Shown in pieces: positions 36,298 to 37,911 of a stretch of DNA of 58,394 nt (position 1 is the first letter of the stretch; each line of letters starts with the position of its first letter). The stretch comes from Pseudomonadota bacterium (GTDB lineage Bacteria > Pseudomonadota > Alphaproteobacteria > Acetobacterales > Acetobacteraceae). The position numbers and the translations under genes are program-made. Location: the NCBI GenBank assembly GCA_021846225.1, contig JAJZCG010000001.1, forward strand, positions 79,125 to 137,518, given 5' to 3'. Below the pieces are notes generated by a model that saw only the letters and a program-made list of their open reading frames with translations, had not been told where the DNA came from and made no database searches.

Positions 36298-36804
36298 ATG
36301 GGCGCAACGATTGATGTGGTGTTTGACGACAGGCCGGTGCTGGACGCGCTGGCGCGGCTGGAGGCGGTTGGTGCTGGCGCGGTGCAGTTGATGACCGTGT
36401 TGGGCTCCGCGCTCGCGGACTCCACGCGGCTGCGGTTTTCCAGCAACATCGCGCCGGATGGTAATAAATGGGCGGCATTGAACCCAGCGTATGCGGAGCT
36501 GCGGCGCCCGGGGCCGATATTGGTGCAGGGCGGCCATCTGCGCGGCAGCATCACGTTCCGGCCATCCGCCGAGGAGGTGAAGATCGGCAGCCCGATGATC
36601 TATGCGGCAGTTCACCAGTTCGGCGCGCGCATCGAGGCAAAAAACGTTAAGTCACTCGTGTTCCAAATGGGAGCGGGTGGCGGCCTGGTGCGGGTGCGGG
36701 CGGTGACGATTCCGGCGCGGCCGTATCTGGGTATCTCGGCCGAGGATGAGGCGATGATCGAAGCCGAGACGCAGGCGTATCTGGAGCGGGTGATGGCGGT
36801 ATAA
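36298..36804 (+). CDS. Phage virion morphogenesis protein (Mu gpG-like)
   Basis: VFDDRPVLDALARLEAVG...LRGSITFRPSAEEVKIGSPMIYAAVHQFGARI...IPARPYLGIS. Confidence 0.88.
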   Translation: MGATIDVVFDDRPVLDALARLEAVGAGAVQLMTVLGSALADSTRLRFSSNIAPDGNKWAALNPAYAELRRPGPILVQGGHLRGSITFRPSAEEVKIGSPMIYAAVHQFGARIEAKNVKSLVFQMGAGGGLVRVRAVTIPARPYLGISAEDEAMIEAETQAYLERVMAV

Positions 36805-36853
36805 TTTTAGCTTGACGGCGGCATGAGGCCGGGATTACGGATGATCCACGGTG

Positions 36854-37030
36854 CTTCAAAACGCCGCTGATAGTAGGATACCGAACATGAGATTTATCGA
36901 AATGCCGGAAGGCAGATGTGTATGTCCAGGGCGTGAGCCTAAAGACATCTGCGCCGTTCCTACTACGGTTTTGAACTTCCGGCTTCGCGCGGTTGTCGCG
37001 CGGAGCAATGCCTTCAAAAGCATGTAGGAG
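36854..37030 (+). promoter_or_regulatory. Putative riboswitch-like structured leader RNA with pseudoknot and alternative SD pairing
   Basis: P1 TTCAAAAC(36855-36862)+TAGTAGGA(36871-36878) with TCCTACTA(36958-36965)+GTTTTGAA(36968-36975); P2 GCAGATGT/ACATCTGC (36912-36919/36945-36952) with GTGA-capped hairpin; pseudoknot GCCGGAAG/CTTCCGGC (36904-36911/36976-36983); SD-region copy CTTCAAAA...GTAGGA at 37012-37029. Confidence 0.7.
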
Positions 37031-37036
37031 ATTACC

Positions 37037-37282
37037 ATGACGAAAATTACTGACGACAAAATTGACTGCTTCGATGTCTCGAACGCGCAGTGCAAAGTGG
37101 CGATGCTCGCCGATTTGTTTGCTGGCCATTCAGAGGATAGCCTTTCGCTGTCTGACGCCGGGCTCGCCGGGCTGGCCATGATGTTGCGGGATATTTCGGA
37201 CGTACTGGTGGCCGCTGAGCCTCTGGTTGCCGCGCGGAGTGTTGCTGCTGCCACGGCGACGCATGAGCGGCGGGTGAATTGA
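37037..37282 (+). CDS. Hypothetical accessory protein downstream of structured leader
   Basis: 81 aa; AGGAG SD at 37026-37030; overlaps next ORF. Confidence 0.7.
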   Translation: MTKITDDKIDCFDVSNAQCKVAMLADLFAGHSEDSLSLSDAGLAGLAMMLRDISDVLVAAEPLVAARSVAAATATHERRVN

Positions 37283-37911
37283 GCGGCGAGCAAGACTCTG
37301 ATGCTAAACCAGATCCCCGGCATTTATGCCGGGGGTTTGGGGAAAGGTTTAAGCAGATCAGAGAGGCGCGCCGATTAACCCAGGCAGTGGTCGCGAAAGC
37401 ATGCGGCGTTACCCAAGCCGCCGTTTCGCAGTGGGAAGCTGAAAAGGATATGCCGGGCGAGAAGGTGGTTATGACCTTGGCTTATCTATATTGCGTTGAG
37501 ATGGAGCAATTGGGCTGGCGCCGTTGGGCACCGATAAATGTCGGTGCCCTCAAGCCTGCTGGACGCCAACTCGGGACCGTCATCTCTGATGGCGAATTCA
37601 ACCAGGCCGCTATGTTGCATCACGAGAGAGTAAGGGCGACGGAAGAAAAGCGTCTCGCTCGTGAGGCTCGCCGCGAAGCGGTGGCGCTGGCCAAGAAGGC
37701 GCGCATTGCAGAGAAGGAACAAAACAAAGCAGCACTCTCAGAAAAGTTTAAGTTTAACACTCCTTACTATCGTGCTAAACGCGAAGAGAGGCAGAGACGG
37801 CTCGAAGATGAAGAGAAGCGTATCGCCGCTATGACCGCCGAAGAGCGCGCGGATCATGAATGGTTGGTCTTACATCAAAAAGTGATGAACGCACTGAGAA
37901 TGCGCGGCTGA
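37279..37911 (+). CDS. XRE-family regulator with long charged C-terminal helix
   Basis: GERFKQIREARRLTQAVVAKACGVTQAAVSQWEAEKDMPGEKVVMTLAYLY; Lys/Glu/Arg-rich tail. Confidence 0.8.
   Translation: MSGEQDSDAKPDPRHLCRGFGERFKQIREARRLTQAVVAKACGVTQAAVSQWEAEKDMPGEKVVMTLAYLYCVEMEQLGWRRWAPINVGALKPAGRQLGTVISDGEFNQAAMLHHERVRATEEKRLAREARREAVALAKKARIAEKEQNKAALSEKFKFNTPYYRAKREERQRRLEDEEKRIAAMTAEERADHEWLVLHQKVMNALRMRG

Follow-up and report, generated by a model that had tools for sequence, protein, structure and literature searches.

The window analyzed here, a stretch of 58,394 nucleotides from a Pseudomonadota bacterium of the Acetobacteraceae, is a Mu-like prophage with portal, F, Gp27, gpT, protease I and tail-completion genes, as an earlier note on this DNA had recognized. 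Positions 36904-36983 of its forward strand are predicted to encode a small RNA of about 80 nt. Its loops match two places in the transcript from which it would be cut, the presumed 5' start and the ribosome-binding site of the following gene, and the RNA therefore most likely silences a small regulatory operon. Very probably this is an antisense RNA of the C4/P4-CI type that represses an 81-aa leader ORF and, via coupling, an HTH (XRE) regulator. Judging by its sequence and predicted fold, it is a variant of the C4/CI-type phage antisense RNAs in a new setting.

All parts of the locus lie on the forward strand. The sequence CTTGAC at 36811-36816, a candidate promoter -35 element whose position is conserved in relatives, is followed by two upstream target blocks that occupy the same site in relatives, namely a1 (TTCAAAAC, 36855-36862) and b1 (TAGTAGGA, 36871-36878). 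A (C/G)TTGAC is present 90-105 nt 5' of the RNA in 8 of the 12 loci with the full layout; no clear -10 element was found for the candidate promoter at CTTGAC. Within the RNA, whose mature ends are putative, the strand b' (TCCTACTA, 36958-36965) in the P3 loop is complementary to b1 and b2, and the strand a' (GTTTTGAA, 36968-36975) located 3' of P3 is complementary to a1 and a2. A CGCGC/GCGCG hairpin without a U-run (36986-37002; arms 36986-36990 and 36998-37002) separates the RNA from the downstream target, and a similar hairpin is predicted in some relatives. The downstream target consists of a2 (CTTCAAAA, 37012-37019) and b2 (GTAGGA, 37024-37029), the latter overlapping the Shine-Dalgarno sequence AGGAG at 37026-37030.

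What had earlier been taken for a single ORF at 37037-37911 is really two: an icd-like leader ORF of 81 aa with an ATG at 37037 (37037-37282) and a separate ORF with a TTG start, overlapping the first by 4 nt and encoding a 210-aa HTH (XRE-type) protein (37279-37911). The 210-aa protein matches HTH_31 (E=1.2e-9) and HTH_3 (E=3.1e-9) and has only weak HTH-domain matches in phages, while a family search with the 81-aa ORF gave no match. Searches for relatives of the two proteins in viral contigs found none, and tblastn against the protease-anchored loci described below gave no match for either.

The 83-nt unit at 36903-36985 has a predicted folding energy of -35.8 kcal/mol (z -3.75), which was reached by none of 200 shuffles, and its best fold is a three-way junction. 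It is composed of stems P1 (36904-36911/36976-36983), P2 (36912-36919/36945-36952) and P3 (36953-36957/36965-36969), with an internal motif AUGUCCA - GGGC-GUGA-GCCU - AAAG in P2 (36922-36944) that is conserved in the subtype discussed below. The complementarities reported in the earlier note were exact on re-reading, both for the arms at 36855-36862/36968-36975 and 36871-36878/36958-36965 and for those of P1, P2 and the CGCGC/GCGCG hairpin. The second copy CTTCAAAAgcatGTAGGA at 37012-37029, the AGGAG and the ATG are likewise present. The architecture drawn from them has to be revised. Since the unit folds as a three-way junction, the proposed H-type pseudoknot GCCGGAAG/CTTCCGGC is instead the stem that closes this junction, in a nested RNA of a fold shared with the sRNA-Xcc1/C4 type. 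The long-range stem that had been combined with it into one pseudoknotted fold is an alternative pairing, and its complementarity is not that of a structural stem but that of an antisense RNA (b' and a') to its target (a1 and b1).

The upstream two-block match comprises 16 bp, which was reached in 3 of 2000 dinucleotide shuffles, and the downstream match 13 bp, reached in 25 of 2000. Across the 2.69-Mb genome, the only two copies of the two-block target motif are those upstream and downstream of the RNA, and the single copy of its complement is inside the RNA. Co-folding of the mature RNA gave no predicted gain with a2-b2 and a gain of 1.3 kcal/mol with a1-b1, in a nested folding scheme that cannot model kissing loops.

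An Rfam scan of the whole window at gathering thresholds was empty, and a permissive scan gave the window RNA 22.1 bits with RF02221 (sRNA-Xcc1), below the gathering threshold of 53. RF01695 (C4) had no match over 36600-37300 up to E=10, nor in the four other Mu-like loci described below up to E=5. Many RF02221 matches in related genomes have the P2 internal motif of the window, ATGTCCA...TAAAG, and these matches were the source of the sequences for a covariance model. A structural alignment (A1) that mixed two P2 subtypes recovered only P1 and was dropped; the ATGTCCA subtype was therefore modelled alone (A3, R1). The resulting model R1, for which 21 RNAs of the sRNA-Xcc1 type from other genomes were used and the window was left out, matches 36903-36992 at 68.3 bits; its E-value of 4e-13 expresses subtype likeness and is not a blind test, since the 21 were chosen after the motif shared with the window had been seen. 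Pair covariation in the R1 set is strong: 19 of 25 pairs changed on both sides, with 78 double-change cells compared to 20 in shuffles. Of 245 genomes searched with R1 (the window's own and relatives), 31 have copies, among them others of the same genus. By BLASTN, the leader had no match in phages and only short, weak matches in 100 relatives.

Several observations concern the class as a whole. In the genomes G182, G380, G080 and G061 (small), about 9 to 17 such RNAs were found in each, with differing pairing strands. At L188, L025 and L041, the RNAs precede proteins that by eye resemble phage antirepressors (Rha/Bro-like). At L030, L042 and L051, the 3' arm of P1 and its flank overlap a terminator-like hairpin with a U-run (CAGTCACCAAA...TTTGGTGACTGTTTTTTTT in L030); P1 and the terminator look mutually exclusive there, an attenuator-like layout. 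RF02221 matches in L025-L154 almost always have a two-block complement of the P3 loop and the following strand about 15-110 nt upstream, and most RF02221-type RNAs in this set have no downstream target.

Both targets change together with the RNA across related loci. Among 124 unique RNAs of the sRNA-Xcc1 type (window included), which are not independent samples because some genomes give many copies, the recognition strand pairs with its own upstream 130 nt over a mean of 15.4 bp, compared to 9.2 bp with swapped RNAs. The own upstream match is beyond the 5% level in 94% of the 124, and the downstream match in 24%. The 12 full-layout loci have own pairings of 14.3 bp upstream and 14.1 bp downstream (9.6 and 9.2 bp when swapped), the downstream figure being partly selected as these loci were chosen for a downstream match. 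The observed pairing sum in these loci was reached by none of 20,000 permutations. Five Mu-like loci among the 12 were found via the protease and the RNA model, independently of the targets; in one of the 12, L196, the upstream site is unconvincing (10 bp). The window is one of 12 loci in which b2 lies on the Shine-Dalgarno sequence or just before the start codon. The earlier identification of TCCTACTACGGTTTTGAA as an anti-Shine-Dalgarno strand that can pair upstream or over the Shine-Dalgarno of the ORF at 37037 is thus borne out, as related loci retain both pairings with altered sequences.

Further Mu-like loci were sought by protease-anchored searches of viral and genome contigs and then with R1. 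Four other distinct Mu-like (pro)phage loci, L286 (uncultured Acetobacteraceae), L229 (same as L230), L220 and L246, have the RNA, as in the window, between the tail-completion gene and protease I. In all four, a1-b1, the RNA and a2-b2 are followed by an ORF of 61-76 aa, the counterpart of the 81-aa ORF, and then, with a 4-nt overlap, by a second ORF. This second ORF encodes an HTH protein in L286 and L246 (Pfam) and, by inspection, in L220, and a Bro-N protein in L229. The scaffolds of L220 and L246 are nearly identical, while a', b' and both targets all differ. L246 has a short downstream b2 match of 4 bp, and in L286 one of four swapped partners outscores the own RNA downstream. Among 121 Mu-like loci the gap between the tail-completion and protease genes is usually 100-300 nt, compared to 1.4-1.8 kb in the RNA-bearing ones, and the nearest relative of the window, L280 (tail-completion protein 80% identical), has a gap of 291 nt without the cassette. 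The cassette is therefore an optional insert. Inserts of 1-2.6 kb without an R1 match are found at the same place in L308, L327, L322, L274 and L315; Mu-like loci with a long gap and no R1 match had no Rfam C4 or sRNA-Xcc1 match. This gap may be a place where extra genes are inserted.

The closest known counterpart of this arrangement is C4 of phages P1 and P7. The GenBank record of phage P1 has the order a1, b1, c4 RNA (77 nt), a2, b2, icd and ant1, with icd and ant1 overlapping by 4 nt, and the window has the same sequence of target blocks, RNA, second target over the Shine-Dalgarno, small ORF and overlapping second gene. In both, the RNA is 77-80 nt long with P1-P2-P3, b' occupies the P3 loop and a' lies 3' of P3. 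For C4, RNase P cleavage at the 5' border of the P1 stem, occlusion of the ribosome-binding site by b' and specificity through a' have been described (PMC5320573); related RNAs differ in specificity, as in P1/P7 heteroimmunity (PMC12197685), and so do the relatives of the window RNA. However, P1 c4 gives only 13 bits with R1, just as RF01695 fails to match the window, the P2 of the window RNA is longer and bears AUGUCCA/UAAAG, the second gene encodes an HTH (XRE) protein instead of Ant, and the cassette lies within the cluster of head genes of a Mu-like phage. With sRNA-Xcc1 the window RNA shares the three-way-junction fold and the upstream complementarity, and RF02221 matches in other genomes include its subtype, yet the window itself scores so low with that family. 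We found no paper joining sRNA-Xcc1 to the C4 mechanism; a 2025 integron paper merely notes sRNA-Xcc1 upstream of symE (PMC12444791).

As for RNase P processing, 56 of 129 sRNA-Xcc1-type RNAs have RCCA after P1 at a fixed position (0-2 at other offsets tested, with the offset fixed by model alignment), which would suit RNase P substrates. The window RNA has no RCCA after P1, and its cleavage by RNase P is therefore uncertain.

P4 CI, compared here by description, is processed from its own transcript, pairs there with sites to either side of it (seqA/seqC) and acts by transcription termination (PMC4825925). The pairing sites of the window are similarly placed and its layout is compatible with that of P4 CI RNA, though its downstream site instead covers a Shine-Dalgarno sequence. 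It is possible, if rather unlikely, that pairing of the window RNA with nascent a1-b1 and a2-b2 causes premature transcription termination and that the translation block is secondary. The upstream site being near-universal in the class and the downstream site present in only about a quarter of its members would fit such attenuation. The location of b2 at the Shine-Dalgarno sequence or just before the start codon, as in C4, speaks against it, as does the result of a search for an intrinsic terminator between the RNA and the 81-aa ORF, which found none. The data do not discriminate between translational block, as in C4, and termination of the nascent transcript, as in P4 CI. Control of a small ORF and the next gene by a prophage leader RNA via access to a ribosome-binding site, as proposed here, is also described for Gifsy-1 IsrK/orf45/anrP (PMC4825925), a system compared by description in which IsrK, unlike the window RNA, opens the orf45 ribosome-binding site.

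A cis switch without excision, close to the riboswitch of the earlier note, would have the leader flip, perhaps with a ligand, between a1-b1 pairing (Shine-Dalgarno free) and a2-b2 pairing (Shine-Dalgarno hidden). These pairings are mutually exclusive, and the predicted whole-leader folds are close in energy, at -66.1 kcal/mol (free), -64.8 (C4 fold), -62.5 (upstream pairing) and -61.1 (downstream pairing); in these models thermodynamics alone does not choose between folds a few kcal/mol apart. We nevertheless regard such a switch as very unlikely. The best-conserved part of the leader is a self-contained three-way junction that is present elsewhere without a downstream target, and the switching strands vary between the close relatives L220 and L246, unlike a ligand pocket. 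No Rfam riboswitch family matched. The earlier note could not match the leader to a riboswitch class; its mode is a known one, that of a C4/P4-CI type antisense RNA (PMC5320573, PMC4825925). Less probable still is a trans-acting small RNA with host or other phage mRNAs as main targets and the cis matches as relics of its origin, an idea suggested by the many class members without a downstream target and by a title cited in PMC12189769 that describes sRNA-Xcc1 in this way, but opposed by the absence of the target motif elsewhere in the genome and by the co-change of both cis targets with the RNA.

For the favored C4/P4-CI-type repression we envisage the following course. The transcript would begin just 5' of a1, possibly from the candidate promoter at CTTGAC, and the three-way-junction RNA would be excised from it, as RNase P does with C4. 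Pairing of b' in the P3 loop and of a', the strand next to it, with a2-b2 would then mask the Shine-Dalgarno sequence of the 81-aa ORF, so that its translation would be blocked and, by 4-nt coupling or polarity, production of the HTH protein too. The a1-b1 site may bind the same RNA strand as a second target or as a competitor. Cassettes of incoming phages with the same pairing code could be silenced by the RNA in trans as well, which would give the RNA a role in immunity.

The best-known examples of C4/CI-type RNA immunity come from a handful of classical phages (P1, P7 and P4). In Mu-like phages the same device forms an optional cassette, followed by a different regulator, in which the pairing codes vary on a constant scaffold. 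The fact that nearly all of the 124 RNAs match their own upstream sequence suggests that the sRNA-Xcc1 family is C4-like. More tentatively, the whole sRNA-Xcc1-like class could work in the C4/P4-CI manner, as a widespread modular system for self-silencing and immunity that occurs in phages, integrons and genomic islands. Nearly every member would target the leading portion of its own transcript (a1-b1), only some would block a ribosome-binding site in addition, and in Mu-like phages the class would serve as a second immunity module that can be exchanged and has many specificities. If the reading of the cassette given here is right, Mu-like phages would fall into heteroimmunity groups that are based on RNA and recognizable from sequence, and a functionally unexplained Rfam family, sRNA-Xcc1, would gain a testable rule, the presence of a1-b1 just upstream.
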